Below, in pieces: positions 31,195 through 47,523 of a DNA stretch of 64,000 bases. The DNA is from Maribacter sp. HTCC2170. GTDB taxonomy: Bacteria > Bacteroidota > Bacteroidia > Flavobacteriales > Flavobacteriaceae. Below the pieces are notes generated by a model, which was not told where the DNA came from, did not search any database, and worked only from the letters and a program-made list of their open reading frames with translations. A program made the translations under genes and the position numbers. The stretch's first letter is position 1. Every line of letters begins with the position of its first letter. The stretch lies in assembly GCF_000153165.2 (NCBI RefSeq), contig NC_014472.1:3158001-3222000 (forward strand), given 5' to 3'.

Positions 31195-31269
31195 AAAACG
31201 ATCTATATAAATACCTCCTCTTCATTCAACAATAATTCTATCTTTATCCCGACTAAATAAAAACTGTAA

Positions 31270-32694
31270 ATGGAGTGTGTCAGTATTTTTGATATGTTGA
31301 AAATTGGCATAGGCCCATCTAGCTCACATACTTTGGGGCCATGGCGTGCTGCCGAACGTTGGATAACTGAGTTAAAATCCTCGAAATTATTTCATGAAGT
31401 TGAGAAAGTCCAGGTACATATGTACGGCTCTTTGTCGTTAACAGGAAAAGGCCATGCCACTGATTATGCTGTAATGTTAGGTCTTTCAGGTGCGGATCCT
31501 GAATATATACCTGTTGATGATATTCATGGTATTGTTCAAAAAATAAAGGATAGTAAAGTGCTACACTTTAATAATGAAAAAACAGTTGCTTTTGATGCCG
31601 AAGTAGATATAAGATTTCACCGTGATTTTTTACCGTTTCATGCCAATGGCATGACCTTCGAGGCTATGTTAAAATCTGGGGGGAAGACCTCTGAGACTTA
31701 TTATTCAATCGGTGGTGGTTTTGTCGTAGTCGAGGCCATGGAAAACTCCAAGCATAAGTTCGAGGATTTCCAGACCTTTCCCTATCCCATAGAATTGGGG
31801 GATGAACTATTGGACTATTGTAAAAAAGAGAACAAAAGCATTTCGGAAATTGTAATCGAGAATGAACGTTCGCTTCGTACTACCATTAAAATAAATGAGG
31901 AAATACATCGTATATGGAATACCATGTTGGAGTGTATGTACACAGGCTGCCATACCGAGGGAAGTTTACCAGGCGGTCTCAATGTACGCCGACGTGCCTT
32001 TGATATGCACCAAGGGCTAAAAGGCGACCTACCCTACTCCAACCCCAAGGAATGGTTACAGACCATTCGCAGGACTGAAGTTAAATTCAGGCAGATCTTA
32101 AAATGGGTAAGCTGCTTTGCACTTGCGGTGAACGAAGTGAACGCATCTTTGGGTCGTGTTGTCACAGCACCCACGAACGGGAGCGCAGGAGTTATACCCT
32201 CTGTGTTGATGTATTATTTGGTCATCGAAGACCATAAAGCAGGTTTTGAGCAAATAAAGAAGTTCTTATTGGTAGCTGGGGAAATCGGCAGTATTTTTAA
32301 AAAAGGAGCTACAATCTCCGCTGCTATGGGTGGTTGCCAAGCAGAAATTGGAGTTTCATCTGCTATGGCCGCTGGGGCGTTGACCGAGTTGTTGGGCGGC
32401 ACACCAGAGCAAGTTTTAATGGCCGCAGAAATCGCCATGGAGCATCATTTGGGACTCACCTGTGATCCCATAGGTGGGTTGGTGCAAGTACCCTGTATAG
32501 AACGAAACTCTATGGGCGCAATCAAAGCCATAAATGCCGCTGAATTGGCCTTGGGCTCTGACCCAGAAGATGCCAAAGTACCATTGGACAAGGTAGTACA
32601 GACCATGTGGGAAACCGCAAAAGATATGAACTCAAAATACAAAGAAACCTCGGAAGGTGGGCTCGCTGTTGGGGTGTATTTAAGTGATTGTTAA
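31270..32694 (+). CDS. sdaA: L-serine ammonia-lyase (iron-sulfur L-serine dehydratase)
   Basis: This enzyme deaminates L-serine to pyruvate with a [4Fe-4S] cluster. It is the single-chain type, with 474 residues. The N-terminal beta domain has [18 protein letters not shown] at about 12-29. The alpha domain has [19 protein letters not shown] near 297, [20 protein letters not shown] near 357 and [20 protein letters not shown] near 397-416, including the cluster Cys residues. Immediately downstream lies a palindrome that looks like its damaged terminator, and then the cassette array begins. Confidence 0.95.
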
Positions 32695-32816
32695 ACTTTG
32701 TTATAAAAACACTTTAAACGTTTGTACTCATTTGTAACTGTTTACATCGCGCTTTTCTAAGTAAACACTTGTAATATTAATTTTTTTGTAGGAATTTAGT
32801 GATACTCATAAAAAAG

Positions 32817-32842
32817 GGCTAAGCGTAATATTACGCTTAGCC
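32817..32842. repeat. 26 bp perfect palindrome at the left edge of the cassette array
   Basis: GGCTAAGCGTAAT is followed directly by its exact reverse complement. Six A residues precede it, but the matching T tract on the right is absent: the sequence passes at once into AATTGTTGGGA, the first cassette boundary. It looks like a former bidirectional terminator of sdaA cut by insertion. It can still form a hairpin and would end minus-strand transcription. Confidence 0.75.
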
Positions 32843-32846
32843 AATT

Positions 32847-32856
32847 GTTGGGAACA
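32847..32856 (+). repeat. first cassette boundary (GTTRRRY-type core)
   Basis: GTTGGGAACA opens the first cassette. It is the exact complement of TGTTCCCAAC at 34358-34367, which opens the repeat after the amidohydrolase gene. No matching left half of an attC lies upstream, so this is the array edge. Confidence 0.65.
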
Positions 32857-32870
32857 ATTTAGAATAACCT

Positions 32871-34340
32871 TTGGAATTAATATTAAAAAAGATACAGATT
32901 TTAGGAATTCTGATTTTAGGAATCTATTCATGCAATAGCCCTAATATGGAAAAGACCGATGATTTAATTGCTATTACCAACACTTCTATTATTAACATGA
33001 ATGATGGTGAAATTGCAGAAGGAATGACCTTGATTATCAAAAAAGGTATAATTTCAACAATTGGAAAGTCAAATGAATTAGAAATTCCTTCTAAGGCAAA
33101 GGTAGTAGATGGAACAGGAAAATACATCATTCCTGGTCTTTGGGATATGCACGCCCATACGTCCTCTGAATCAGTTACAAGAAGCGTACTTTATCCCTCA
33201 TTTATTGCTAATGGTATAACAGGAATTCGTGTTTTAAGTGCTGATTGTTTTGAACCATGTTGGGAATTACAAATGAATATTGACCAGTCAAAAGGACTTC
33301 AAAGTGACGTTGAAAATTCAATTCTAGTTGGACCAAATGCAATATTTGGGAGTACATATATTAATGGTGCAATACCTGGAAAACCTTCAACTATAAAAGA
33401 ACCCGGTAACAGACAAGACGGAAAAAAACTTGTTCATCTTTTATTAGACAGAGGAGTTGATTTTATTAAGATTTACGACGAAATTCCTAGAAATGCATAT
33501 TTTGGAATAGCAGAAGAGGCTAAAAAGAAAGGCTTACCAATTGCAGGTCATGTTCCAGTATCAATAAAAGCATCTGAAGCTTCAGATGCAGGTCAAAAAA
33601 GCATTGAACATTGTTGTGCAGGCAGTCTGTTTGAAGAGTGTAGCTCAGAAGAAAAAAAACTTCGTGAACAAATCACTAAAGTTATCCAATCAAGAGAACC
33701 AAAAAACATGTATAGTTTGGTTTTAGAGTTGGTTAAAACTTATGATGATGCAAAATGTCAGGAAGTCATTAGGAAATTTCTCGAAAACAATACCTTTTAC
33801 ACACCTACTTTAGTTGCCACTGAAATGGATAATATCTTGAGAAAGGATGATTGGAGAGATGACCCAAGACTTAAATATTTACCTAAGATAGAGCATGAAT
33901 TTTGGATTGAGGATGAAATAACAACAAAGGAAGTTCTAGGAATACAAGACCCGTTAATTCGAGAAAAACGATTTGATATTGTAGGTGATATGAATAAAGC
34001 AGGAGTCAAACTTCTAGCAGGTTCTGACTGTGGTGTATTTGGAGTGCATTACGGATCTGGACTGCATGATGAGCTAGAATTGCTAGTTGAAGCAGGTTTG
34101 ACAGAATTGGAAGCACTTCAAACAGCTACGCTAAATCCAGCAGAATACTCTGATAAATTAGAATTTCTTGGAAATGTTAGAGAAGGTCTGAAAGCGGATT
34201 TAATCATTCTAAATGAAAACCCGTTAGATAATATTAGCAATACAAAACGAATTTATTCAGTTTTGTCTAACGGCAAATATTACGACAGACAAAGACTTGA
34301 TACGATGTTAGAGAATGTGGCAATTGAAGTAGCTAAATAA
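32871..34340 (+). CDS. amidohydrolase family lipoprotein
   Basis: A metal-dependent amidohydrolase of 489 residues, first gene of the cassette array. A TTG start at 32871 keeps a lipoprotein signal (ILKKIQILGILILGIYSC); a later ATG would remove it. The barrel metal motif is IIPGLWDMHAHTSSES near residues 89-104. The carboxylated Lys may be in DFIKIYDE, further His ligands are in IAGHVPVS and SIEHCCAGS, and the metal Asp is in LLAGSDCGVF. The family covers imidazolonepropionase and prolidase-like enzymes. The substrate is unknown. It would face the periplasm or the cell surface. Confidence 0.82.
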   Translation: MELILKKIQILGILILGIYSCNSPNMEKTDDLIAITNTSIINMNDGEIAEGMTLIIKKGIISTIGKSNELEIPSKAKVVDGTGKYIIPGLWDMHAHTSSESVTRSVLYPSFIANGITGIRVLSADCFEPCWELQMNIDQSKGLQSDVENSILVGPNAIFGSTYINGAIPGKPSTIKEPGNRQDGKKLVHLLLDRGVDFIKIYDEIPRNAYFGIAEEAKKKGLPIAGHVPVSIKASEASDAGQKSIEHCCAGSLFEECSSEEKKLREQITKVIQSREPKNMYSLVLELVKTYDDAKCQEVIRKFLENNTFYTPTLVATEMDNILRKDDWRDDPRLKYLPKIEHEFWIEDEITTKEVLGIQDPLIREKRFDIVGDMNKAGVKLLAGSDCGVFGVHYGSGLHDELELLVEAGLTELEALQTATLNPAEYSDKLEFLGNVREGLKADLIILNENPLDNISNTKRIYSVLSNGKYYDRQRLDTMLENVAIEVAK

Positions 34341-34358
34341 AATTGAAAAGAAAAAACT

Positions 34359-34493
34359 GTTCCCAACAACGTGTATAATTCATTGCTAGTACTCGCCTAC
34401 TTGGAAATTCCTGCGGAATTTCCTCTGGTTCGTTTTAGTTTACTAATTTAGTTGCTGAAACACGCAACGAAATCATACACAAACACGTTGGGC
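34359..34493 (+). repeat. attC-like site 1 (after the amidohydrolase)
   Basis: An imperfect inverted repeat of about 135 bp. The left end GTTCCCAACAACGTGTAT pairs with ATACACAAACACGTTGGGC at the right. The centre carries a perfect hairpin, GGAAATTCC/GGAATTTCC (34403-34423). The left core matches the opening of its own cassette over 10 bases. The arms are closely related to those of site 4. Confidence 0.7.
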
Positions 34494-34505
34494 AACATTT
34501 GAAAA

Positions 34506-35624
34506 ATGGCAAATTATGTGATTTTAGACACTTCGATTTACAGGGAACTTGGATTTAAATTCAATGAAAATATTGATTATCAAAACCTCTGTAATTTTAC
34601 AATGAATACTGATGGAGAAGTATTACTATCGAACATTGTAATTGAGGAGTTTACAAATTTTTACAAAGAGAGTTTAAAGTCTAAAACTAATGCATATTTA
34701 AAATCAACGAACGATTTAAAGAGAGATGGCTTTTTCAAAAGCCCTCAATTAAATACAGATGATGTAGAAAAGGAATTTAAAAAAGCTATTCAAAAATTCA
34801 GAAAAACATTATCAATTGACCCAGTAAAAAAACATAGAATAGCAGTTCTTCAACCGACTCAAATAGACGGACTTGAATTGACTAAATTTATTTTAGAAAG
34901 CCGTGAATCAAAAGAAAGTAATGTTCAAATTAGATAATCTCTAATTTGGGATTCAATTTTAAACTTTGCTTTTTTAGAAAGCGAAGATAGAATAGTAAAA
35001 TCAGGTAAAAGAAAAATTAAGTTCAATAAAAGTATAGTGACTTTTATAACAAAGGATAAGGGATTTGAAGAAAATGTTTTATTTCAAATGCTTCAAGAAA
35101 ATTACGGAGTAGAAAATATAGAAGTCGAAAAATCAATTTTAAACTTCTTGCACAAAAAAGGATTCAATTTCAATTTTATTACATCAGAATTACTACTCCA
35201 AAAAATTAAAAAAGAGAGAATACTAAAAGACTTGACAAAAGACATTGGAGCTTTATTAAGTTACGTCAGTGGCAGATATAGCAGTAATTGTTACGAAAAA
35301 AAAGTTGAAAAATCCGAAATAGAAAAAGTAGAAGTTATTGAATATTACACTTACAAAGATTCAGAAGATGACAAATATAAGTTTATAGCTCATTTAAAAG
35401 TATTTCCAAACGTAGTATATGAAGTAGATGAAGAAGGATACAATGAAAGTCTGGAAACCAATAAAACTAAAACGTATTTACGAAATTTAGAAACCTATGA
35501 TAGTGAAAAGAGACCATACTTTAAAGAACCTATTCTATTCATGTATGGAGGTTTAGTCAACATAGAACGTGAAACGATTAGAAGCATACGTTTTATAGAT
35601 TTTCTACCTTGGATGTATATATAA
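34506..35624 (+). pseudogene. PIN-domain (DUF4935/PIN_8-like) protein interrupted by an in-frame TAA
   Basis: Two open stretches, 34506-34937 and 35037-35624, lie in the same frame and are joined by an open reading frame broken only by TAA at 34935-34937. Read through, the 372-residue product has PIN-nuclease features: ANYVILDTSIYRE at the N-terminus (first acid), NIVIEEFTNF (second), then stop-SLIWDSILNF, where PIN_8 proteins carry an acid before xLIW, and VTFITKDKGFEENV (last acid). The second half (about 150-372) is of unknown function. The gene is probably inactive, or yields only the first 143 residues. It fills the second cassette. Confidence 0.75.
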
Positions 35625-35628
35625 AAAC

Positions 35629-35849
35629 GTTGCCCAACAAAACCTATAAACAATAAGGGCTTCCGGCTTAAACGAAAGGTTTGTCTATTTTTATGAAGCC
35701 TGCCTGCCGGCAGGCAGGTCCGCAAAATTTTTTGGATTTTGCTTTTTAGCGCGACAAAGAAAAAAAGAAAACAAAAAGATTTCGCTATGTGCGTGGCGGA
35801 AAGCAAACGCCAGTTTGCTCCCGTACTGTTCATAGCTCAACCGTTAGGC
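35629..35849 (+). repeat. attC-like site 2 (after the PIN gene), enlarged
   Basis: The left core GTTGCCCAAC is an exact 10-base complement of GTTGGGCAAC at 34487-34496, the opening of the PIN cassette. The right core is GTTAGGC at 35843. The arms CCTATAAACA and TGTTCATAG pair. At 221 bp it is the longest site, and it contains the 20 bp palindrome at 35699-35718. Confidence 0.7.
35699..35718. repeat. 20 bp palindrome inside attC-like site 2
   Basis: CCTGCCTGCC followed by GGCAGGCAGG is a perfect GC-rich palindrome in an AT-rich setting. I recall it as a dispersed repeat in Bacteroidota genomes. It may have entered the site later, or it may form the tip of the site's hairpin. Confidence 0.75.
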
Positions 35850-35875
35850 ATAATTTAAAAACTGAAATCAACATA

Positions 35876-36739
35876 GTGATTAATGCATACGAATACTTTA
35901 AAAATCATCCAAAATTCAACAAGCTTGTTGGAAATGATTTCTTATTCGTAGAATATAAATGCCCTCTTAATATTGAAGAATATCAATTGTGGATTGAGAA
36001 TCACTTAATAACGTATGTTGTAAGTGGTAAAAAAGATTGGATTACTTCAAATAAAACACATAAGCTTACAGCAGGAGACACTCTGTTTGTTAGAAAAGGA
36101 GTTTATACAACAAAGCAATATCTAGAAAGTGATTATTGTGTAATGCTGTTCTTTATCAACGATAAATTCATCAAAAGATTTATTACAGAAAACCCATCTT
36201 TTAAAAGAGAATTAAATCATCGGAAAGAGCATAATCAAATTTTCGACATTACTACTAATGAAGTGTTTAAAACATTAATAGAAAGCATATTCCATTATTT
36301 AAAGCAAGGAGAAGAAATTCCGAAAGAGCTAGTGGAAATTAAATTTAAAGAATTACTCTTTAATATAGTGCTTAATTCAAACAATAACCAACTACTTTTT
36401 TTCTTCAATTCAATAACGCAAGATGCCAAATCTAATATTGAAAATATTATGACAGAAAATTTTCAATACGATTTGAAAATAGCTGATTTTGCTAAACTTT
36501 GTGGTAAAAGTTTATCTTCTTTTAAACGTGAGTTTAAAGAATGTTTTAACACTACACCAAGTAGGTGGTTAATCGATAAAAGATTAGAACATTCCAAAGC
36601 CCTATTGATAGGAACGAATCTAACCGTAAGTGAAATAGGTTACGAATGTGGATTTAAAAACAACTCGCACTTTATTCAAGCTTTTAAAAAGAAAGTAAAC
36701 GTAACTCCCAAAAAATTTAGAACGCTCAAAAAAGAATGA
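35876..36739 (+). CDS. AraC family transcriptional regulator with cupin-like sensor domain
   Basis: A regulator of about 287 residues. No ATG fits; a GTG at 35876 is the first start inside the cassette, whereas upstream starts lie within the attC-like repeat. The N-terminal cupin-like domain (about 15-110) reads ITYVVSGKKDWIT and TAGDTLFVRKGVYTTKQYL. The C-terminal AraC double helix-turn-helix (about 205-285) has KIADFAKLCGKSLSSFKREF and SEIGYECGFKNNSHFIQAFK. It is followed by an 18 bp direct repeat and then an OsmC gene, all in one cassette. It probably regulates these neighbours. Confidence 0.85.
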   Translation: MINAYEYFKNHPKFNKLVGNDFLFVEYKCPLNIEEYQLWIENHLITYVVSGKKDWITSNKTHKLTAGDTLFVRKGVYTTKQYLESDYCVMLFFINDKFIKRFITENPSFKRELNHRKEHNQIFDITTNEVFKTLIESIFHYLKQGEEIPKELVEIKFKELLFNIVLNSNNNQLLFFFNSITQDAKSNIENIMTENFQYDLKIADFAKLCGKSLSSFKREFKECFNTTPSRWLIDKRLEHSKALLIGTNLTVSEIGYECGFKNNSHFIQAFKKKVNVTPKKFRTLKKE

Positions 36740-36746
36740 TAATTAT

Positions 36747-36785
36747 ACTTTTTGAACTTTTAAGAACACTTTTTGAACTTTTAAG
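36747..36785 (+). promoter_or_regulatory. tandem 18 bp direct repeat, candidate AraC operator
   Basis: ACTTTTTGAACTTTTAAG occurs exactly at 36747-36764 and at 36768-36785, a period of 21 bp or two turns of the helix. AraC proteins often bind such spaced direct repeats next to the promoter. It sits between the AraC gene and the OsmC start at 36846, within the same cassette. Confidence 0.6.
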
Positions 36786-36845
36786 GAATCTCGTATAAAA
36801 CATAAAACCTGTCCTTTGTATCAGTTAATTGGAAAAATTAATATC

Positions 36846-37424
36846 ATGCAAAGTCAGGAATTTTCAACTAGAGATTTAAAATCTATAAAGAATAGTTCTG
36901 TAGTACATAAAAGACATTTAGTTCTTCACGAAAAGTATCAAAAGAATCCTGCAACTGCTTGGATTACTGATTCTGCGGAGGTCAATGGAATTAATCTACA
37001 AGACCCTTTTAGAACAAAGGTTTCCATCAATAATGAAATGAAAGTTCCATTCAGAATTGGAGTTCATAAAGCAGTTGGTGGAGATCACGATTTTCCAAAC
37101 CCAGGCGATTTACTATGTGCTTCTTTAGCTTCCTGTTTTGAAAGTACCGTTAGAATGATTTCCAATAAACTAGGAATAGAACTCTTTGAAACAAAAGTAA
37201 GAGCAACTGCTCAAGTAGATGTAAGAGGAACGTTAATGATTGATAAATCTGTTCCAGTTGGATTTCAATCTATGCATATTGATGTATTAATTATTGCTAA
37301 AAACACCAATGAAAAGCTCTTACATAAACTAATTGAAGGAGCAAAACGCAGCTGTATTGTCTATCAAACTATAAAAAAGGGCATCCCAATTACTTTAAAT
37401 GCAGACGTTAAAATCAAAAACTAA
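36846..37424 (+). CDS. OsmC family protein
   Basis: A 192-residue OsmC/Ohr-fold protein. I take the ATG at 36846; a TTG at 36816 would add ten residues. The family core is seen in VGGDHDFPNPGDLLCASLAS near 80-99, with the first conserved Cys followed by CFESTVRMISNKLGI, and the second Cys in GAKRSCIVYQTIKKG near 171. OsmC/Ohr proteins use the Cys pair to reduce organic hydroperoxides, but many relatives have no proven substrate. It is 12 bp ahead of the methyltransferase gene and likely in one transcript with it. Confidence 0.85.
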   Translation: MQSQEFSTRDLKSIKNSSVVHKRHLVLHEKYQKNPATAWITDSAEVNGINLQDPFRTKVSINNEMKVPFRIGVHKAVGGDHDFPNPGDLLCASLASCFESTVRMISNKLGIELFETKVRATAQVDVRGTLMIDKSVPVGFQSMHIDVLIIAKNTNEKLLHKLIEGAKRSCIVYQTIKKGIPITLNADVKIKN

Positions 37425-37436
37425 AAACAATAAATT

Positions 37437-38174
37437 ATGAAAAAATCAATCATCTTATTATATGGAATTGTAGCTTATTTTGTCTTTCTAATTGCTTTTT
37501 TATATGCCATTGGGTTTGTAGGTAACATAATTGTTCCAAAATCAATAGACTCTGGTGCAGATACTACAATGTATTCTTCCATATTTATCAATGTAATATT
37601 ATTAAGTGTTTTTGCTTTGCAACATAGTATAATGGCGAGACCAAAATTTAAAGAATGGCTTAATTCCATTTTTAGTCAAGCTATGGAACGTAGCACTTAT
37701 ATTCTACTATCTAGTTTAGCTTTAATTTTAATCTATTGGCAATGGCAACCAATAACAACTATAGTTTGGGAAACCGAAAACACAATTCTTTCTAGTATTA
37801 TAACTGGAATATTTTTTCTAGGTTGGCTTATTGTTTTACTTTCTACGTTTATGATTAATCATTTTGAACTTTTTGGATTATCCCAAATTTTCGATAATCT
37901 AAAAAACAAACAAACTGCTAACCCAAAATTTCAAACCAACTATTTATATAAAATTGTTAGACATCCCATAATGCTAGGTTTTATAATCGCCTTTTGGGCA
38001 ACGCCTACTATGACAGTTGGACATTTACTATTTGCTCTAGTAACTACAATTTACATTTTTATAGCTGTAAAATATTTGGAGGAAAAAGACCTTCGTAAAT
38101 TTATTGGAGAAAAATATGAAACGTACCAAAAAGAAGTGCCCATGATTATTCCTTTCACTAAAAACAAGAGGTAG
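37437..38174 (+). CDS. mddA: methanethiol S-methyltransferase-like membrane protein (MddA/NnrU family)
   Basis: A polytopic membrane protein of 245 residues with about six helices. The C-terminal half fits MddA, which methylates methanethiol to dimethyl sulfide: HFELFGLSQIFDNL near 141-154, YKIVRHPIMLGFIIAFWATP near 171-190, TMTVGHLLFALVTT and VKYLEEKDLRKFIGEKYETY with VPMIIPF at the end. These are the isoprenylcysteine-methyltransferase-like SAM-binding motifs. It is the last gene of the three-gene cassette, next to OsmC, which suggests a shared role in thiol or sulfur stress (inference). Confidence 0.75.
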   Translation: MKKSIILLYGIVAYFVFLIAFLYAIGFVGNIIVPKSIDSGADTTMYSSIFINVILLSVFALQHSIMARPKFKEWLNSIFSQAMERSTYILLSSLALILIYWQWQPITTIVWETENTILSSIITGIFFLGWLIVLLSTFMINHFELFGLSQIFDNLKNKQTANPKFQTNYLYKIVRHPIMLGFIIAFWATPTMTVGHLLFALVTTIYIFIAVKYLEEKDLRKFIGEKYETYQKEVPMIIPFTKNKR

Positions 38175-38188
38175 ATAAAGAAAAAAAC

Positions 38189-38322
38189 TATGCCTAACAT
38201 TGTATAAAAGTAATAGCGGCTTGGGTTTTTATTCAAGCCGTTTTGCATTTAATTAAGTATCTTGTTTTCCGAAAAATAGTTGCATTCTAATCCGCTACTA
38301 CTCTTAAACTAGTACGTTGGCA
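38189..38322 (+). repeat. attC-like site 3 (after mddA)
   Basis: The left core TATGCCTAAC is an exact 10-base complement of GTTAGGCATA at 35843-35852, so AraC-OsmC-MddA form one cassette. The arm GTAATAGCGG pairs with CCGCTACTAC, and GGCTTG with CAAGCC in the centre. The right core is GTTGGCA at 38316. The arms resemble those of site 6. Confidence 0.72.
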
Positions 38323-38355
38323 GTAATTAAATCGAACATTCAATTCAAAATACAA

Positions 38356-39978
38356 ATGATAAAAAATTATTTAAAATTTTTAGTAGTAGCAATGCTTTTT
38401 AGCAGTTGTGAAAACGACAAAAAGCCAAATACGAAAATAGTTGAAATTGATCAAACAACTATCGGAAAGCACATTGAACGTCTAGCGTCCGATGAGTTTC
38501 TAGGAAGAAAACCATTTACTGAAGGGGAAATAAAGACCGTAAACTATTTAAAAGATGAGTTTGAAAAATTAGGAGTTTTACCAGGAAATGGTAGTAGTTT
38601 TTTTCAAGATGTTCCAATGGTAGAAATTACAGGAACTCCATCAGAAAAAATGATTATTTCAGGAAATAACGAAAGCTTTAATTTAGAATACTTAAAGGAT
38701 TTTGTTGCAACAACAAATAAAACAGAACCTGATCTAAACCTTGATAATTCAGAACTTGTATTTGCAGGTTATGGTATTGTTGCTCCTGAGTATGGATGGA
38801 ATGATTATGAAGGTATAGATTGGAAAGGAAAAACTGCTGTTGTTTTAATAAACGATCCTGGTTTTAATTCTGGTGATTCAACCTTATTTAAAGGAAATGA
38901 AATGACTTACTATGGACGTTGGACTTACAAATATGAAGAAGCTGCAAGACAAGGTGCCGATGGGCTTATAATTATTCATGATACAGAACCAGCTTCCTAT
39001 GGTTGGAATGTAATTGAATCTGGTTGGACCGGTGCACGGTTAATTATAGAAAGTGATTTACCTCAATTAAATATTGAGTCATGGATCAGTGGTGAAAGTG
39101 CTGAGAAAATGTTTGAAATTTCAACAATGAAAGGTCAAGACTATAAAACACTTTCTAGAAATAAAAACTTTAAACCAATTGCATTAGACTTAAAAGTTTC
39201 AGTAAAAATTAAAAATGAAATTAAGAAAGATGTTTCCAAAAATGTAGTTGCTCTTATACCAGGTACGGACAGAAAAGACGAGTTTATTATATACTCAGCT
39301 CATTGGGATCATTTTGGCGTGGGTAAAGCTATCAATGGTGACTCGATCTACAATGGATCAGTAGATAACGCATCTGGCACGGCAGGTTTATTAGCAATTG
39401 CCGAAGCGTTCAAAAAATCTGAAGCTACTAAACGTTCAATCGTCCTATTAGCTGTTACAGGAGAAGAGCAAGGCTTGTTAGGATCAGCGTATTATTCAGA
39501 AAACCCAATTTTTAGTCCTAAGAAAACAATAGCAAACATTAATATTGATGCGCTTGATAGTCCCGGGAAAATGAAAGATTTAACAATTACAGGTTTTGGT
39601 CAATCTGAAATGGATGAATATGCCAAAGAAGCTGCTAATCAACAAAACAGGTACATTATTCCTGATCCAGAAGCAGAAAAAGGATATTTCTTTAGATCAG
39701 ATCATTTCAATTTTGCAAAAATTGGAATCCCTGCCTTGTATGCAAGTGGTTCTTATGAAGGGTTTGATCTTAGTATTGAAGAAATAAAAAAGTACAATGA
39801 TAATTATCGTATGTATAAATATCATCAACCTTCTGACGAATACAATTCTGAGACGACAGAATTAAGTGGTGTTCAATTAGATTTACAACTATTTTTTAAT
39901 GTCGGCTTTAAATTATCTAATGAAGAATATTTCCCAAAATGGTACAATGGAAGTGAATTTAAAGCTGCTAGAAAATAA
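38356..39978 (+). CDS. M28 family peptidase lipoprotein with PA insert
   Basis: A secreted zinc aminopeptidase of 540 residues. The ATG at 38356 gives a lipoprotein signal (FLVVAMLFSSCEN); the earlier TTG at 38317 lies inside the attC core. A PA domain (about 110-280) includes FAGYGIVAPEYGWNDYEGI. The M28 domain has the zinc ligands in YSAHWDHFGVG, GSVDNASGTAGLL, VTGEEQGLLGSAY, NIDALDSPG and FFRSDHFNFAK. It probably releases N-terminal residues from peptides outside the cytoplasm. It fills its own cassette, whose closing core is degenerate. Confidence 0.88.
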   Translation: MIKNYLKFLVVAMLFSSCENDKKPNTKIVEIDQTTIGKHIERLASDEFLGRKPFTEGEIKTVNYLKDEFEKLGVLPGNGSSFFQDVPMVEITGTPSEKMIISGNNESFNLEYLKDFVATTNKTEPDLNLDNSELVFAGYGIVAPEYGWNDYEGIDWKGKTAVVLINDPGFNSGDSTLFKGNEMTYYGRWTYKYEEAARQGADGLIIIHDTEPASYGWNVIESGWTGARLIIESDLPQLNIESWISGESAEKMFEISTMKGQDYKTLSRNKNFKPIALDLKVSVKIKNEIKKDVSKNVVALIPGTDRKDEFIIYSAHWDHFGVGKAINGDSIYNGSVDNASGTAGLLAIAEAFKKSEATKRSIVLLAVTGEEQGLLGSAYYSENPIFSPKKTIANINIDALDSPGKMKDLTITGFGQSEMDEYAKEAANQQNRYIIPDPEAEKGYFFRSDHFNFAKIGIPALYASGSYEGFDLSIEEIKKYNDNYRMYKYHQPSDEYNSETTELSGVQLDLQLFFNVGFKLSNEEYFPKWYNGSEFKAARK

Positions 39979-39982
39979 AACT

Positions 39983-40118
39983 ATAGAACAACGTATATAA
40001 TTCATTGCTTGTTCTCGCCTACTTACGAAAATCCTCGCGGATTTTCCTAAGGTTAGGTTTACTTTTGTTAAATTAGTTGAGCTAGACTCGCAACTAAACC
40101 ATACACCTAACGTTGTGC
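39983..40118 (+). repeat. attC-like site 4 (after the M28 peptidase), left core degenerate
   Basis: The arms closely match site 1: AACGTATATAATTCATTGC on the left, GCAACTAAACCATACAC on the right and a central hairpin GAAAATCC/GGATTTTC. The right core is GTTGTGC at 40112. The left core reads ATAGAAC and does not complement the opening of its own cassette (GTTGGCAGTA), so it has decayed or been exchanged. Confidence 0.6.
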
Positions 40119-40137
40119 GTAATTAAGCCAAACGAAA

Positions 40138-41118
40138 ATGAAAACACCTTTTAAGGTATTATTTTTACTCTTCCTGACTATTTTTAGCACGAAATCTTTT
40201 TCACAGAAAATGGTCGAACATTACGACCCAGTAAAAAATGATAGCCTAAGAGTTGGAATAGGGGAAAATGACTTTTTACCTTTTATTCAAAAAGGGTATA
40301 CCATAATGCTTCCTGAAAATAAGATAATAAAAGGCGTGCTAATTTTCCTCGAAGATTCAAAGTATGACAACAAGAATAGGAGCTCAAAGCAGATGTATAT
40401 TCAAGCATCGGAAAAAGACTTTGCAGTATTATCTATTTCAACCGAAATTCCTCTTGATTTTTACTTTTCAAAATCATCTATGATTTCTACGCATAAGCTA
40501 ATTCGAGAAGTCTTTAAAAAACATCATTTACCAAATGACAACATTTTCTTTTTGGGAGCGAGTTTAGTCGGACATAGAGCGATGCGATATATTAAATTTA
40601 TGAAAGAGAGTGACTTCGAATTTCAATTGAAAATAAAAGGTATTGTCACTTGCAACTTCACAATGGATTTTACAAGAAAATGGTACCAACATAAACGTGA
40701 CATAAGACTTAATCGAATTGACCTTTGGGAACCAAAATTTATTAACTTTCTATTGGAAACGTACTTGGGAGGAACACCAAAAACCAATCCTGAAAATTAT
40801 AACAACTTCTCATCGTATAGCTACTTTGATGAAAAGAATGAAAATGTTAAGATTTACAAAGACTATGGAGTTCGAGCGTATATAGAACCCGCAATAAAAT
40901 ATAAGCTGACAAAACAACTAAGAACCTTATACGAGAATAATTCGACAGATATAGTTGGCTTTTTAGCTGAATTGAAACTAGCAGGAAATGAAAATACCGA
41001 ATTAATAGTATTACAACCCGAGGACAATCCATCAACCACAAAGAATACTCAATCAACTTGGGATGCAATAAATAAAGATGAACTTATGGATTGGATTCAA
41101 AAGCAGACGAAAAAATAA
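40138..41118 (+). CDS. secreted alpha/beta-hydrolase-like protein of unknown function
   Basis: A 326-residue protein with a signal peptide (LFLLFLTIFSTKSFSQ). A nucleophile-elbow-like stretch, FFLGASLVGHRAMRYIKF near 137-154, suggests an alpha/beta hydrolase fold. A lipase-like preceding strand (KGVLIFLEDSKYDN) would hold the oxyanion hole. A catalytic acid and His cannot be placed with confidence. I do not recognise a named family. It fills one cassette bounded by well-matched cores. Confidence 0.6.
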   Translation: MKTPFKVLFLLFLTIFSTKSFSQKMVEHYDPVKNDSLRVGIGENDFLPFIQKGYTIMLPENKIIKGVLIFLEDSKYDNKNRSSKQMYIQASEKDFAVLSISTEIPLDFYFSKSSMISTHKLIREVFKKHHLPNDNIFFLGASLVGHRAMRYIKFMKESDFEFQLKIKGIVTCNFTMDFTRKWYQHKRDIRLNRIDLWEPKFINFLLETYLGGTPKTNPENYNNFSSYSYFDEKNENVKIYKDYGVRAYIEPAIKYKLTKQLRTLYENNSTDIVGFLAELKLAGNENTELIVLQPEDNPSTTKNTQSTWDAINKDELMDWIQKQTKK

Positions 41119-41119
41119 C

Positions 41120-41192
41120 TACGCACAACAACGGGTATAATAAATGGCTGTTGTTAGGCTTAAATAATGGTCGTTGTACAAACACGTTATGT
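41120..41192 (+). repeat. attC-like site 5 (short form)
   Basis: The left core TACGCACAAC is an exact 10-base complement of GTTGTGCGTA at 40112-40121, the opening of the same cassette. The right core is GTTATGT at 41186. At 73 bp it is the shortest site, close to the minimum size of integron attC sites. Confidence 0.68.
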
Positions 41193-41357
41193 GTAAGCAT
41201 GTCAAAGAATGAAAATATAAGCCCTCACTAATATAACTAACTACAACAATGTATAAAAGCAATAGCGGTTTAGGGTTTAACTTGAATCGCTATTTTCTAT
41301 TAAATTAGTATCTTGAAAAGAAGTGTGCTATTATACCCTATTGATCTTATACGAGAC
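41187..41357 (+). other. tiny ORF-less cassette
   Basis: About 170 bases lie between the right core of site 5 and that of site 6, and most of them are site 6 itself. I find no credible ORF. The closing core CTACAAC does not complement the opening GTTATGT, so this may be a remnant of a deleted cassette. Confidence 0.45.
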
Positions 41358-41364
41358 GTTGTAA
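41241..41364 (+). repeat. attC-like site 6
   Basis: The left core CTACAAC and right core GTTGTAA (41358) are complementary over six bases. The arms AATGTATAAAAGCAATAGCGG resemble those of site 3 and pair internally with CGCTATT. It precedes the alpha/beta hydrolase-TPR gene. Confidence 0.6.
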
Positions 41365-41391
41365 CAATCATTAACCTATTGCATCTTTAAT

Positions 41392-42942
41392 ATGGACACT
41401 AATTCAAAAATAATGCGATTAACCATATTGATAACCTGTATCGTTCTATCCACAATATCTTATGGCCAGACATCATTAAAAGAAATAAACCTAATCAGCG
41501 GAAAGCATAAAGTAGGTTTTAAACATTATACAATTATAGATAGCACGAGAACCTATCAAATTAGAAATGACTTTAACAATCAATTCATTGATAGACCAAT
41601 TCCTATCAGCATTTGGTATCCCGCAAAAATTCAAAAAAATATTTCCAAACAGTTAGCTGTTTTGGATTATTTGGAGATTTTAAAAGAAGAGGAAGAATGG
41701 GAAAACTTGCCAAACGATTTTTTACTGGATTGGTTCCCATACTTATGGAATACGCCCGATAATAGAGCACATCTTTCTGAAAAAGTCAATGCTTTTTCAA
41801 ATTCAACTTTTTTAATTGGTAAATTTCCAGTTGTAGTATATGCGCCAAGTTACCAAGCTTCATCAATTGAGAATTTTACACTGTTCGAATATTTAGCTAG
41901 CAATGGTTTTGTAGTGATATCAAGTCCTTCAAGAGGAACAGATACAAGATGGTTGGAAGGAGGAACTACAAAAGATATGGAAACACAATCTAGAGATGTT
42001 GAACTTCTTTTGAAAGAAATTAATAAATACGAAAATATAGACTTTGACCGAATAGCTCTTATGGGATTTAGTTTTGGTGGACTTTCCAACGCTATAACAG
42101 TAATGAAAAATAAGAACGTAAAAGCAATTGTGAGCTTAGATGGAACGGAAAGATATAATTACCCTGTCCTGGAAAAATCACCTTACTTTAATTTAGAAAA
42201 GTTTACTATTCCATATATCCATTTTGCTCAAAAAGAAATTCCAGAAGAGGTTTTGACCAGTGATAAAATTCCTGCCGAATTGAATTACAAATTCCAATTA
42301 TATGACTCATTGAAATATAGCAAGGCGTACAGTTATAAATTACACGACCTAACTCATTCCTATTTTAGTTCTTTCGGTGTTTTATTTGCCAACAGAGATA
42401 AAAGGCAAGACAAAAGTGATAATAAAGTTATGGCATCCTATAAACTAGTTTCTGAACATACTTTACAGTTTTTAAATGCGACTTTGCAAAATGACAAGTA
42501 TGGAAAGGAGTTTATTGAAAATAGCCCTGATAAAAATGGTTTTTCTGAAACTTTGATTTCAAAAAAAATGAAACAAGTAAAAACGGGGGAATTCGATTAT
42601 AAAGATTTTAACGATTTAGCATTCAATCAAGGTTATAAAGATTTAATTCCGTTATATCAAAGAACAATTACCAAACATCCAGAGCTTGAGCTTCAAGAAG
42701 GTATGCTAAACACCTTAGGTTTGCGATTGTCACTTAATTCCAAACAGATAGAACAAGGTGTTAATGTCTTTTTGTTAGCTTTACATATATATCCGAAATC
42801 AGCAAATCTTTATGATAGTTTAGCTGAAGGTTATTTCTACAATAAAGATTTTAAAAATGCTATTTCCAATTACAAAAAGTCGTTGGAAATAAATCCTGAA
42901 AACCAAAATGCAATTGATAGGTTAAAACAACTTCGGGAATAA
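41392..42942 (+). CDS. secreted alpha/beta hydrolase with C-terminal TPR
   Basis: A 516-residue exported enzyme with a signal peptide (LTILITCIVLSTISYGQ). The platelet-activating-factor-acetylhydrolase-like hydrolase domain has ISIWYPAKIQ, KFPVVVYAPSYQASSIENFT, and the nucleophile elbow ALMGFSFGGLSNA near 222-234. The catalytic His is probably in LHDLTHSYFSSF near 318-329. The last 100 residues form TPR helices (SANLYDSLAEGYFYNKDFKN, then SLEINPENQNAIDRLKQL). The fusion is common in Bacteroidota esterase-like proteins. The substrate is unknown. Confidence 0.8.
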   Translation: MDTNSKIMRLTILITCIVLSTISYGQTSLKEINLISGKHKVGFKHYTIIDSTRTYQIRNDFNNQFIDRPIPISIWYPAKIQKNISKQLAVLDYLEILKEEEEWENLPNDFLLDWFPYLWNTPDNRAHLSEKVNAFSNSTFLIGKFPVVVYAPSYQASSIENFTLFEYLASNGFVVISSPSRGTDTRWLEGGTTKDMETQSRDVELLLKEINKYENIDFDRIALMGFSFGGLSNAITVMKNKNVKAIVSLDGTERYNYPVLEKSPYFNLEKFTIPYIHFAQKEIPEEVLTSDKIPAELNYKFQLYDSLKYSKAYSYKLHDLTHSYFSSFGVLFANRDKRQDKSDNKVMASYKLVSEHTLQFLNATLQNDKYGKEFIENSPDKNGFSETLISKKMKQVKTGEFDYKDFNDLAFNQGYKDLIPLYQRTITKHPELELQEGMLNTLGLRLSLNSKQIEQGVNVFLLALHIYPKSANLYDSLAEGYFYNKDFKNAISNYKKSLEINPENQNAIDRLKQLRE

Positions 42943-42953
42943 AGCCAGCAGGT

Positions 42954-43080
42954 AACAAACCTTATAATCAATTGCGGCTGAATTCCTAAACGGAAATCCT
43001 CGCTCATTAACTAACTTTATGCTATGACGGAAAAGTCCGGTGAACATTTTCCGCAACGCATCATGGCCGAGACGTTAGCA
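42954..43080 (+). repeat. attC-like site 7
   Basis: The left core AACAAAC leads into CTTATAATCAATTGCGG, and the right arm CCGCAACGCATCATGGCC ends at core GTTAGCA (43074). The central stems are CCTAAACGG and GAAAAGTCCGG-like. The left core does not complement the opening of its cassette (GTTGTAACAA), so this site is less certain than its neighbours. Confidence 0.52.
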
Positions 43081-43096
43081 CACATAAAAAACGATA

Positions 43097-43768
43097 ATGA
43101 AAAATTTTAAAGGAAATTTAATTTTGATTTTATTGGTATTAGGAATTTCAAGTTGTCAACAAAACAAAACTAAGATTTTGATAATTGGAGATTCTATTTC
43201 GATAGGATACACCCCCTTTGTTTCTGAAAATTTAAAGGGTATAGCAGATGTATACCATAATCCTGGAAATGCACAACATACAGGGACTGGACTAGAAAGT
43301 ATTGAAACCTGGGTTGGAGATAATGATTGGGATGCAATTCAATTTAACTGGGGATTATGGGATTTATGTTATCGCCACGCTGATTCTAAAGTTCAAGGAA
43401 ACAGGGATAAAGAAAATGGGAAAATCACTTTTACGATGGATGAATATGCTTCTAATCTTGATTCAATTGTTACTATCCTAAAAACGACAAGTAAAGCTAA
43501 ATTAATTTTTTTAACTACATCTTTTGTGCCCGAAAATGAGGCTGGTAGATATAAAAACGATGCAATAAGGTATAATGACGCAGCAAAAAAGATAATGCAA
43601 AAACATTCGATTATTGTAAATGATATATATGAACAATCTATTCCAATTCACCAAAAATATGGAAAGGGATTAGATGATGTTCATTATTCAAATCTAGGAT
43701 ATGAAAAACTAAGTGAACTAGTGACAAATTTTCTGAAAACAGAAATAGAATCAATGAATAACAAGTGA
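43097..43768 (+). CDS. SGNH/GDSL-family hydrolase lipoprotein
   Basis: A secreted hydrolase of 223 residues with lipoprotein signal MKNFKGNLILILLVLGISSC. SGNH blocks are visible: block I ILIIGDSISIGYTPFV with the catalytic Ser near 33, block III WGLWDL replacing the usual GxND, and block V DDVHYSNLGYEKLSELV with Asp/His near 201-204. Such enzymes are esterases or carbohydrate deacetylases. It is the last confident gene of the cassette array. Confidence 0.82.
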   Translation: MKNFKGNLILILLVLGISSCQQNKTKILIIGDSISIGYTPFVSENLKGIADVYHNPGNAQHTGTGLESIETWVGDNDWDAIQFNWGLWDLCYRHADSKVQGNRDKENGKITFTMDEYASNLDSIVTILKTTSKAKLIFLTTSFVPENEAGRYKNDAIRYNDAAKKIMQKHSIIVNDIYEQSIPIHQKYGKGLDDVHYSNLGYEKLSELVTNFLKTEIESMNNK

Positions 43769-43772
43769 TTAC

Positions 43773-43975
43773 GTGTGCTAACAATAAATATAATCAATAC
43801 GGGCCGATTTGGGCAATTTGAACTTTAGAGCATTTAATAAACAATGTAACGGTCTGATAAGTTGTAGCTTCGAAATCCCGCACTACGCATATTCGAGATT
43901 TTGGATCGGTTTGGATAGATGATGTGCAGATAGAAATTATAAAATAAAAACGACTCGTATACGAGGCCGTTACGA
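43773..43975 (+). repeat. attC-like site 8, right end of the array
   Basis: The left core GTGTGCTAAC is an exact 10-base complement of GTTAGCACAC at 43074-43083, the opening of the SGNH cassette. The best right core is GTTACGA at 43969, preceded by TATACGAGGCC, which resembles the end of site 6. At 200 bp the site is long, and its interior pairing is less clear. Confidence 0.55.
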
Positions 43976-44042
43976 AGGAAACTTTTTATTATCTTGTTGA
44001 ACAACCATCTGAATTCGCTTTCAGAAAACAAAAACACCGATT

Positions 44043-44450
44043 ATGAATCCAGTTATCAGAAATATTTTAGCGGTAATCGCTGGATGGCTTGGGGGTAGCA
44101 TTGTAAATATGGGTTTAATACAACTAGGTCATAAATTAATCCCTATCGAAGGTATTGACCCCAATGACATGACTGCCTTGGCTGAAATCATGCCTACGCT
44201 GGATTTTAAATATTTTATATTCCCTTTTCTGGCACATGCCCTTGGTACACTGGCCGGTGCGGCTATTGCCTTTATGATTGCGGCTACCTTCAAAATGAAA
44301 TTTGCATTAGCTATTGGGGCTTTATTCCTTATCGGAGGAATTATAGTAAGTACCATGTTACCTGGTCCAACTTGGTTCACAGTTGTAGATATTTTATTGG
44401 CCTATATTCCAATGGCTTGGTTGGGAGGCAAATTGGCAAATAAAACATAA
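44043..44450 (+). CDS. four-helix membrane protein (paralogue of 47524-47940)
   Basis: A 135-residue inner-membrane protein with about four helices, starting NILAVIAGWLGGSIVNMGLI and ending in YIPMAWLGGKLANKT. The arrangement of GG-rich first helix, polar loop with PxxL, and final GG helix matches the protein at 47524-47940. No function is known. Its last base is the A of the next gene's ATG (ATAATG overlap). It is the first gene right of the cassette array. Confidence 0.7.
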   Translation: MNPVIRNILAVIAGWLGGSIVNMGLIQLGHKLIPIEGIDPNDMTALAEIMPTLDFKYFIFPFLAHALGTLAGAAIAFMIAATFKMKFALAIGALFLIGGIIVSTMLPGPTWFTVVDILLAYIPMAWLGGKLANKT

Positions 44451-44638
44451 TGTACCCTTATCATAACAGAATAAAGCAACGGATCAACAACAATGAATTG
44501 ATCAATTATGAATATGTACAGAAATATAAAAACATTTCACCATGTCTATTGCTGTATTTTTCAACTGAACCCAAAATAAGACCCATTCGCGAGCACAGAT
44601 TTGAAGAATATGAAAGAATACTTAAAGTTTCGAAATAA
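44450..44638 (+). CDS. small conserved hypothetical protein (MYPYHNRIKQRI type)
   Basis: A 62-residue soluble protein starting MYPYHNRIKQRINNNEL and ending RPIREHRFEEYERILKV. I recall similar short proteins with the same opening and the TEPxxRPIRxHR stretch in other Bacteroidota. The function is unknown. Its ATG overlaps the previous stop, so it is probably translated together with the membrane protein before it. Confidence 0.65.
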   Translation: MYPYHNRIKQRINNNELINYEYVQKYKNISPCLLLYFSTEPKIRPIREHRFEEYERILKVSK

Positions 44639-44700
44639 ATCTTGATATCTCGTTCGAATGATAAAATGGAAAAAACTCGTTTAATCCTAAAACCATAATA

Positions 44701-44937
44701 ATGAAAAAAATGACCTGTAAACAACTTGGGGGAGCCTGTGATTTAGTATTTGAAGCTGAAACCTTCGAAGAAATGGCCGAAATGAGTAAAAAACATGGCA
44801 TGGAAATGTTCCAAAAAAATGATATGGCACATTTAAGGGCCATGAAAGAAATGAAAGACAAGATGCAGGCTCCCGATGCAATGGCCAACTGGTATGATGG
44901 TAAAAGAAAAGAGTTTAATTCCTTGCCAGAAGTTTGA
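44701..44937 (+). CDS. DUF1059-like small protein
   Basis: A 78-residue soluble protein. KKMTCKQLGGACDLVFEAET with two Cys near the N-terminus matches DUF1059, followed by a helical region FEEMAEMSKKHGMEMF. The tail MKEMKDKMQAPDAMANWYDG is longer than in simple DUF1059 proteins. The function is unknown. Confidence 0.75.
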   Translation: MKKMTCKQLGGACDLVFEAETFEEMAEMSKKHGMEMFQKNDMAHLRAMKEMKDKMQAPDAMANWYDGKRKEFNSLPEV

Positions 44938-44967
44938 TATTCAATGTAGAGGAGAGTTTTTCTAACT

Positions 44968-45423
44968 ATGATGAAAAGTACTGTAATCAGACCATACCAG
45001 CCATCAGATAAAAAGCATTTGGTGAAAATTTTCAATCTGAATACTCCAAAATATTTTGACAAGGGTGAAGTTATAGACTTTGAAAAGTATTTGAAGCAAA
45101 GAGCTGACACCTATTTGGTAACCGAACTGAACAATGAGATTGTTGGTGGGGCAGGGTATTATATCAACAACCAAGAAAGATCTGGGCACATTACTTGGAT
45201 TTTTTTTAATCCTAAATATTCAGGACAAGGGTTAGGAAGAGAGATTGTTGCATATTGCTTATCAATTTTAGAAAATGATGAGCGTGTACACAAATTTGTA
45301 GTTACAACATCGCAACTCGCCTATAGGTTTTTTGAAAAATTTGGTTATTCACTTAGCAGAACAGAGAAAGACTATTGGGGAAAAGGTCTTGATCTATATG
45401 AAATAGAAATGTTGAAAAAATGA
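44968..45423 (+). CDS. GNAT family N-acetyltransferase
   Basis: A 151-residue acetyltransferase. The acetyl-CoA-binding loop NPKYSGQGLGREIVAYCLSI is at about 75-94, with YRFFEKFGYSLSRTEKDYWG following. The substrate is unknown. Spacing of 30 bp to the DUF1059 gene suggests a shared transcript. Confidence 0.85.
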   Translation: MMKSTVIRPYQPSDKKHLVKIFNLNTPKYFDKGEVIDFEKYLKQRADTYLVTELNNEIVGGAGYYINNQERSGHITWIFFNPKYSGQGLGREIVAYCLSILENDERVHKFVVTTSQLAYRFFEKFGYSLSRTEKDYWGKGLDLYEIEMLKK

Positions 45424-45510
45424 AGTGTTAATAATTGAGATTATAGCACCTAGATAGTTTTGTCTTCATAAATTTAGGTGAAATGACAAATTCCTAATCA
45501 TAGCGTATCA

Positions 45511-46008
45511 ATGCCAAGACCAAAGACCAAAACCGAATTACTGCAATTAAGCAACGAGAACTATAAAAAGCTTAATAATTATGTTGATTCATTCCCTCTG
45601 GAAGAACATATGAAAGAATTTCCTGAAGGAACCATGAATAGAAATATCAGGGATGTTTTAGGTCATTTACACCATTGGCATTTGTTGGTCCAAGGCTGGT
45701 ATAAAGTGGGAATGTCAGGCGAAAAACCTGAATTGCCCGCAAAAGGTTATACTTGGAAAACCACCTCCGACCTCAATCATAACATTTTGAAAAAATACGC
45801 TAATGAAGAGTTAGGTACAGTTAGAGCCAACTTAGACGAATCATACGCTCAACTTCAAAAATTGATTAAGAAACATACCGATGAAGAATTGTTCGAGAAA
45901 AAACGATATAAATGGACAGGTTCAACTTCGTTGGGAGCTTATTTAATCTCAGCTACCTCAAGTCACTATGACTGGGCTTATAAGTTGATTAAAAAAGCCA
46001 GAAAGTAA
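45511..46008 (+). CDS. ClbS/DfsB family four-helix bundle protein
   Basis: A 165-residue DinB-like protein. It starts MPRPKTKTELLQLSNENYKK and has VLGHLHHWHLLVQGWYKVG near 47-65 and the C-terminal TSLGAYLISATSSHYDWAYK, with the His positions typical of ClbS/DfsB. ClbS itself hydrolyses the colibactin warhead and so protects its producer. No colibactin-like cluster is visible here, so a different substrate is likely. Confidence 0.85.
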   Translation: MPRPKTKTELLQLSNENYKKLNNYVDSFPLEEHMKEFPEGTMNRNIRDVLGHLHHWHLLVQGWYKVGMSGEKPELPAKGYTWKTTSDLNHNILKKYANEELGTVRANLDESYAQLQKLIKKHTDEELFEKKRYKWTGSTSLGAYLISATSSHYDWAYKLIKKARK

Positions 46009-46068
46009 AGTAATAAATGCATTTGAAATCAATTATCTTCGATCAAACTATTAAACTAGCGAGAGCAC

Positions 46069-46761: not shown

Positions 46762-46800
46762 ATATCAATTGTAAAGATTAATTAAGACAAATTAGTTATA

Positions 46801-47436: not shown

Positions 47437-47523
47437 TTCTATATCGTCTAACCCAGTACTTAAAATCGTATCTTTATTCACCTTGTTATCAATAATTTAT
47501 GTTGATAATTTAAACATTAAGGC

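Follow-up and report, generated by a model that had tools for sequence, protein, structure and literature searches.

What separates, and what may have assembled, a run of eight gene segments downstream of sdaA is the question raised by a stretch of 64,000 nucleotides (nt; hereafter the window, C1:3158001–3222000) of the 3.87-Mb single-contig chromosome of Maribacter sp. HTCC2170. The array occupies positions 32847–43968 of the window, carries its genes on the + strand and begins at a palindrome after sdaA. A first-pass annotation, made from the letters alone, had read its eight inverted-repeat spacers as those of an integron-like cassette array, labelled CALIN (cluster of attC sites lacking integrase). 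We consider it probable that the region represents an orphan platform for cassettes, belonging to an integron system present in the chromosomes of many Bacteroidota, whose integrase is of a non-IntI type and probably acts in trans. At the level of sequence, a cassette architecture, a covarying stem, strand-polarised pairing and a shared attachment site are all evident, as are identical cassettes with exact boundaries in two arrays of a relative and the absence of the IntI insertion from the recombinase concerned. This protein, of 375 amino acids (aa), is encoded elsewhere in the chromosome and most likely carries out the exchange. As the annotation had stated, no integrase lies in the window: whole-genome profile searches with PF00589 and TIGR02249 placed no recombinase there.

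Segments that match their own closing repeats

Five segments had been described as opening with 10 bases exactly complementary to those that open their own closing repeat. When each GTT 10-mer with an exact reverse complement 150–4000 bp downstream is listed, the window yields 19 pairs, and all five are among them (32847/34358, 34487/35629, 35843/38189, 40112/41120 and 43074/43773); the other 14 are scattered, with five starting inside the array region and four of those also ending there. Random pairings of starts with closes match over at least 9 bp in 363 of 19,853 draws (1.8%; 12 arrays from 10 genomes, the array of genome G009 having given no site), and at that rate five self-matching segments among eight have a binomial probability of about 1e-7. 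The further claim, that the match is to the cassette's own start and not to the next, holds across these 12 arrays, where the start matches its own closing arm over at least 9 bp in 97 of 120 neighbouring site pairs, over exactly 10 in 75 and over more in none.

These counts also bear on the suggestion that the spacers are dispersed terminators or hairpins of the repetitive extragenic palindrome (REP) type, matching by chance or through terminator symmetry. Hairpins are common between co-oriented genes; however, the left and right arms of one spacer match over at least 9 bp in only 10 of 135 cases, against the 97 of 120 for the cassette's own start, and identical cassettes with exact edges are found in two places (see below). 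On the own-start versus same-spacer counts this explanation was rejected, and we regard it as scarcely credible.

The cassette core, of about 10 bp, reads GTTRNNNNNM, with a closing arm KNNNNNYAAC; past base 10 the segment start has A in 134 of 135 sites and the close has C in 116 of 135. The strict form of the GTTRRRY/RYYYAAC-like cores named in the annotation is seen in only 8 of 135 scanned starts and 9 of 135 closes, so that the canonical attC core is not what these sites carry; the structural scanner that collected them itself demanded CGTTR (CGTT[AG]) and YAACA. Genes in the chromosomal arrays mostly follow the strand of the sites (98 same, five opposite and 17 without an open reading frame (ORF), among 120 cassettes).

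A positive control was provided by ten loci at canonical IntI genes of the same phylum, where pairs of at least 10 bp number 35 of 66 in cassette order and 2 of 37 reversed, and pairs of at least 11 bp 23 of 66 and 1 of 37. The control is uneven, locus L322 giving no pair of at least 10 bp and L323 one, and their arrays may lie outside the covered stretch. Since canonical IntI loci show the same signature, the earlier reasoning from self-match to integron cassettes was sound, and the integron-like reading gains support. By the same, looser count, the 12 arrays gave pairs of at least 10 bp in 123 of 234 cases in cassette order versus 16 of 91 reversed, figures to which repeated cassettes and neighbours contribute. 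Only 3 of the 234 exceed 10 bp, versus 23 of 66 at the canonical loci, and the 10-bp limit therefore looks particular to the lineage whose integrases lack the IntI insertion (here called patch-less).

Fold and strand polarity of the sites

The sites were characterised on 36 examples lying between consecutive self-matching segments of this chromosome and related arrays, 27 of them 132–142 nt long and nine 195–222 nt. Each consists of an R arm enclosing a short asymmetric internal loop and a stem of about 16 bp, the L stem. Removal of near-duplicates left 32 sites for pair counts and stabilities, and reduced 135 scanner sites to 117 distinct ones. Among 512 L-stem pairs in the 32 sites, 400 are Watson–Crick, 68 are G·T on the bottom strand, seven are G·T on the top strand and 37 are other. 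The bottom strand is the more stable for the arms of 31 of 32 sites and for 26 of 32 whole sites.

For the model alignments, sites outside 128–144 nt and some others were dropped, so that 24 were kept, then 22 given, and finally 17 plus one window site. In this 18-site alignment 86.5% of cells pair, versus 70.6% in shuffles; 10 of 19 pairs have changed on both sides, and none of 500 shuffles scored as high on any of five measures, in a test that leans towards the structure used because that structure came from one alignment row. At two column pairs the top strand shows non-standard pairing in 18 of 18 and 17 of 18 rows; by eye this is A·C, which is G·T on the bottom strand. A conserved single-strand fold with bottom-strand preference, as integron sites have, is accordingly present. 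The scanner found 135 sites in 12 arrays and none on the opposite strand (block-shuffle means 0–0.4), a strand result that is partly built in since the scanner rewards bottom-strand G·T; the stem-pair and stability counts rest on sites found without that rule.

Covariance model R1, derived from these sites, matches seven of the eight window spacers on the + strand with E-values of at most 0.008 (one, 34358–34496, was in the training set), and the scanner recovers three of eight, including the one that R1 misses, so that the eight spacers of the annotation are all accounted for; an Rfam scan of the window gave no match. Folding of spacers as bottom strands, which had been proposed as a check, had an uneven outcome among the six window spacers so treated, those at 34361 (z-score −2.7) and 39983 (−3.9, with a different fold) folding and that at 42950 reaching −1.6.

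A recombinase-led array in the same chromosome

A similarity search with the first closing site, S1, found copies at C1:2595–2600k and elsewhere, and so led to a second array, about 570 kb from that of the window, on the minus strand, of about 23 kb and, by eye, about 20 segments. It starts directly behind the gene of the 375-aa tyrosine recombinase (C1:2616768–2617895) and holds eight start/close pairs, a ninth listed pair lying outside it. The two arrays share an attachment site, with 37 identical positions among the 38 bp that precede the GTT core. In the window it lies at 32809–32846 on the + strand, immediately 5' of the first cassette, and consists of the palindrome GGGCTAAGCGTAATATTACGCTTAGCC plus AATT; the palindrome that comes before the first GTT core (32847) reads AAAAAAGGGCTAAGCGTAATATTACGCTTAGCCAATT, and its fold has a z-score of −7.0. 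It is attI-like by position, as a palindromic site directly after its own recombinase with cassettes beginning at the next GTT, a measure of which similarity to known attI sites forms no part.

Among 60 genomes the palindrome occurs in this genome and in G009 only, where it heads an array without a neighbouring integrase; no integrase was found in G009 by similarity or profile search. Judged by eye, a palindrome and GTT core follow within about 150 bp of the integrase stop in 8 of 13 relatives. A leader of approximately 110 nt 5' of the window's attachment site (32695–32808) is conserved both in congeners, at sdaA, and at the other platform of G009; it possibly holds a cassette promoter. A third cluster of sites, with about ten R1 matches, lies at C1:2766–2777k (locus L022, 2765001–2780000), where the PF00589 search found no recombinase.

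The 375-aa recombinase

The protein keeps the catalytic residues R, K, H, R, H and Y, which are invariant across 18 aligned rows. It has an extra N-terminal domain and is without the insertion of about 42 residues that defines integron integrases. Its TIGR02249 (IntI) score is 210.6, in two pieces, against a cut-off of 265; its R-to-H spacing is 90 residues versus 132 in recovered canonical IntI proteins (proteins outside 230–720 aa being excluded from this comparison), with a gap in the IntI4 alignment. As a tyrosine recombinase it therefore does not combine PF00589 with the additional domain specific to IntI, and the search of the genome that the annotation had proposed, for an IntI-type protein with the patch III insertion, returned no such protein, the best candidate being without it.

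In a tree taking 79 of 200 proteins, with 16 of 76 inner branches left open and an arbitrary root, the 16 canonical IntI rows group together in a single clade (100/100) and the patch-less rows fall outside it; simple loss of the patch inside IntI is for this reason unsupported. Locus L196, of Firmicutes bacterium HGW-8, has a patch-less integrase near the IntI clade and four start/close pairs nearby. The best family score is with NCBIfam NF040815 (XerA; 218.4 versus a cut-off of 220) and the best PDB matches are 5hxy and 4a8e. Alignments with XerA begin at residue 108–109 and so leave out the N-terminal domain, for which a single-protein Pfam search gave no match; with this domain and its cassette arrays the protein departs from the XerA-type recombinases that it most resembles. 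The nearest named homologue is from an uncultured Maribacter (75%). Acinetobacter plasmids carry a recombinase, named TnpF by one record, with 53% identity to residues 143–375.

The genome also encodes XerC/D-type recombinases of 304 and 300 aa, and a host XerC/XerD pair might exchange the cassettes in place of the 375-aa protein; such a pair would also be available in array-bearing genomes in which no close integrase was found. The loci of three other recombinases of this genome, however, have self-matching pairs no more numerous than block shuffles or one more, and it is the 375-aa family that repeatedly heads arrays. We think a role for XerC/XerD very unlikely.

Cassette movement and distribution among relatives

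The clearest traces of movement come from the complete genome of relative G025, in which array a is led by an integrase (2728–2792k) and array b is an orphan (2215–2261k); their attachment sites agree over 97 of 98 bp. Ten repeated-cassette families occur among 121 cassettes, and eight of them have members in array a as well as in array b. Three entire cassettes (1677, 765 and 741 bp) show 100% identity from one array to the other, and so does a 975-bp stretch of a fourth that lies within a longer segment; the identity of repeated cassettes is bounded by GTT cores at both ends. Flanks, in the 60 pairs shown, are mostly alike at chance level, a few being similar (up to 1.0), some where the copies are neighbours. 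Because the edges fall exactly at GTT cores, homologous recombination is disfavoured, and on these sequences the identical cassettes are most readily accounted for by transfer in trans through an integrase.

Congeners G002, G003, G005 and G006 have, at sdaA, a window-like leader and an attachment-site-like sequence, followed by a first segment other than that of the window, the first segments of G003 and G005 being related. Identical gene order in relatives, which would have spoken against mobile cassettes, was thus not seen. Comparison of sdaA loci revealed no recognisable platform at sdaA in G009 and G007, and the genes next after sdaA in more distant relatives are those that start at 55180 or 56738 of the window. 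The orphan site of G005 matches the integrase-linked site of G006 (33/34) and that of G009 matches the site of the present genome (31–32/34); uniform identity of orphan and integrase-linked attachment sites across genomes was looked for and not found, G003 and G006 differing.

Sites occur in 42 of 60 relatives and a close integrase in 26; they are found in 25 of the 26 genomes with a close integrase and in 17 of the 34 without, site counts per genome being lower bounds (55 candidates scored). In four of these 17 the profile finds an integrase, with an inner stop in two of the four. Among 52 integrase loci on named contigs, 15 have sites downstream on the integrase strand, 43 in all; a single locus has a site upstream and another has five on the other strand; the rest, many on short contigs, have none. 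No sites were found in 28 further integrase loci, nearly all non-Bacteroidota by title.

Within the class Bacteroidia, the TIGR02249 cut-off is passed in 1 of 295 genomes, with matches below it in 135 more (136 with E at most 1e-28). Among the matches listed, those below the cut-off nearly all end at about profile position 180 or begin at about 240, a break that is expected for integrases without the insertion; arrays were checked beside some only. In a sample of the phylum the cut-off is passed in 84 of 296 genomes, of which, among the matches listed, only G095 belongs to the same class. The 84, of which nearly all lie outside the class, fit the inclusion of Bacteroidota, in a passage of PMC8618304, among the phyla with integrons. 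A passage of the IntegronFinder 2.0 paper (PMC9024848) gives only In0 elements earlier in Bacteroidetes, plus one complete integron in Salinibacter.

Viral contigs and a possible visiting IntI

Sites of the same family were found at 57 of 80 loci on contigs of the IMG/VR database (L229–L308) that have a shorter patch-less integrase; they number 227, and every one lies opposite to the integrase. Starts match their own close over at least 9 bp in 94 of 168 cases, versus a same-spacer match in 1 of 227, and genes run opposite to the site direction in 129 cases and with it in five, 34 having no ORF of 50 aa. The lytic flavobacterial Polaribacter phage P12002L (L309) has R1 sites at 14497–14630, 31112–31319 and 32792–32930 (E < 2e-8), two of the three near methyltransferase genes. 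According to passages of PMC9892861, IntI1 recombined P12002L attC2, the top strand giving no recombinants, and attC1 was the exception among six sites. That attC2 may be one of the three R1 sites.

These observations touch the possibility that the window holds an ordinary CALIN, in which a visiting IntI caught canonical attC cassettes and the local patch-less recombinase has no connection with them. That IntI1 acted on attC2, although not on attC1, of a phage in which R1 finds the same site family speaks for it (PMC9892861, passages as above). Against it, canonical IntI passes the cut-off in a single genome of the class, arrays start behind a patch-less recombinase in many relatives, R1 gave no significant match at canonical-IntI loci, of which 30 short and 10 longer ones were scanned, and GTTRRRY is confined to 8 of 135 starts. 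We hold this account to be improbable. The CALIN label is right in that no integrase is nearby and incomplete in that the array has an attachment site and, probably, an integrase that acts on it in trans.

Layout and state of the window array

All features listed here are on the + strand. Cassette 1 (32847–34486) encodes an amidohydrolase (ORF 32871–34340; Pfam Amidohydro_1) and starts with GTTGGGAACA, the reverse complement of 34358–34367; its closing site S1 (34358–34496) scores 115 R1 bits, being itself in the R1 training set, and folds as a bottom strand into R arm, internal loop and L stem. Cassette 2 (34487–35842; start GTTGGGCAAC, close GTTGCCCAAC at 35629) has a PIN-domain gene, apparently split into ORFs 34506–34937 and 35037–35624, with the Pfam match (PIN_12) in the first piece only, and closes with the long attC-like site S2 (35629–35852; 222 nt), found by the structural scanner only and not by R1. 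Cassette 3 (35843–38315; start GTTAGGCATA, close TATGCCTAAC at 38189) encodes, by Pfam, an AraC regulator, an OsmC protein and an NnrU-like membrane protein, the MddA of the annotation; S3 (38189–38325) is found by R1 (74 bits) and the scanner and has no good thermodynamic fold.

Segment 4 (38316–40111), with a Peptidase_M28 gene (Pfam), starts with GTTGGCAGTA, which does not match CTATAGAAC, the closing arm of S4 (39981–40121; R1 81 bits). Cassette 5 (40112–41185; GTTGTGCGTA and TACGCACAAC at 41120) encodes a protein (40138–41118) of no Pfam family and closes with the short S5 (41120–41195; R1 19.7 bits, E 0.008), whose fold is no better than shuffles. Segment 6 (41186–41357), with no ORF of 50 aa and no self match, is probably a deletion remnant; S6 (41238–41367) is found by R1 (57 bits) and the scanner. 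Segment 7 (41358–43073) encodes an alpha/beta hydrolase with TPR and ends in S7 (42946–43083; R1 43 bits), whose closing arm does not match the segment start. Cassette 8 (43074–43968; GTTAGCACAC and GTGTGCTAAC at 43773) encodes an SGNH/GDSL hydrolase (Lipase_GDSL), and the last site, S8 (43773–43978, right edge uncertain), has 28 R1 bits at 43774–43908, the next GTT core being at 43969. About 11 kb past the last site (43969–55180), up to genes syntenic with distant relatives (55180–58750), are also extra versus those relatives, and about 44688–44930 has a counterpart downstream of sdaA in G009.

This layout raises the possibility of a fossil array, whose cassettes arrived long ago by the same route and whose platform is no longer used. 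The three segments without a self match (38316, 41186–41357 and 41358), the ORF-less remnant, the split PIN gene and the weak S5 and S8 would all fit; on the other side stand an attachment site still 37/38 identical to the integrase-linked one, exact 10-bp matches retained by five cassettes, and congeners with a different first cassette. We treat disuse of the platform as a serious, though less likely, account.

Several of the same features weigh against the orphan platform reading itself. The three segments without a match make up three of eight, bottom-strand folds of the spacers at 38189, 41123 and 41237 are no better than shuffles, and at 34361 the top strand is as stable as the bottom (−19.2 versus −19.3; z −3.1) in another structure; the window array may be partly decayed. 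No clear palindrome follows the integrase in 5 of 13 relatives, by eye, and orphan and integrase-linked attachment sites are unlike in G003 (11/34) and G006 (19/34). Of the 17 site-bearing genomes without a close integrase, 13 are also without one by profile (E at most 1e-60), and when the family is taken by itself co-occurrence is weak (p 0.06), the rows not being independent. The acting enzyme could also be XerC/D or a visiting IntI, given that IntI1 recombined a site of P12002L, a phage with this site family (passages of PMC9892861). Finally, the support for excision and insertion consists of comparative traces of movement, no recombination having been observed.

A proposed mechanism and its relation to integrons

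Under the orphan platform reading, new cassettes would enter at the palindromic attachment site, 3' of sdaA, each as a circle carrying one folded site in which the core of about 10 bp pairs with the closing arm of the same cassette. Insertion would open the circle at the core, leaving one half at the gene start and the remainder as the closing spacer. The 375-aa recombinase, heading its own array, would act on that of the window in trans, and probably works on the folded bottom strand, whose use is probable because the L stem has conserved G·T pairs there and A·C mismatches on the top strand. We infer this single-stranded use, as well as the exact cleavage point and the help of the N-terminal domain in hairpin recognition.

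The system resembles a sedentary chromosomal integron or superintegron in its head-to-tail cassettes, genes mostly on the site strand (98/120), start/own-close complementarity, bottom-strand bias, attachment site beside the integrase and long array (about 65 kb in G025). It differs in its integrase, which falls outside the IntI clade and carries an additional N-terminal domain but no IntI insertion, in a core that is not GTTRRRY, in a match that nearly always stops at 10 bp, in a palindromic attachment site and in an array often on the integrase's own strand. Canonical attC sites have bulged extrahelical bases; in those described here the L stem, about 16 bp long, has G·T conserved at two positions. 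Like a CALIN, the window has several sites and no nearby integrase, but its array begins at a copy of an attachment site, with the probable cognate integrase elsewhere in the chromosome. Integron-like working is well supported by these comparisons of sequence; by the present definition, however, the system is no integron, since its integrase has no IntI domain and its sites depart from the core consensus.

In passages of PMC8138268, on an 'integron-like' subgroup of tyrosine recombinases, the insertion is called essential for integron function, and those passages mention no arrays beside patch-less members, whereas arrays are present here. Archaeal work (passages of PMC9668308) treats the IntI domain as a defining characteristic and describes IntegronFinder as detecting IntI by overlap with an IntI-domain profile, so that a patch-less lineage should be missed or filed as CALIN. 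Titles and abstract openings, in a coverage that left out preprints and most subscription papers, gave no description of such a lineage in Bacteroidia.

We lean, by a little, towards a broader view in which the Bacteroidia, where canonical IntI is rare, own a widespread integron lineage with superintegrons of about 65 kb and viral-contig versions. Its integrases, without the I2 or additional domain that is regarded as the key innovation of IntI, would recombine folded single-stranded sites whose strand is set by conserved G·T wobbles; the N-terminal domain of the chromosomal forms, perhaps similar to those of UvsW, XPB and HARP, may read the hairpin, and orphan platforms would be loaded in trans. 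The existence of a natural family that has cassette arrays and bottom-strand-biased sites but no IntI domain makes the question of that domain testable, and the Bacteroidota and their phages may hold a large reservoir of cassettes.

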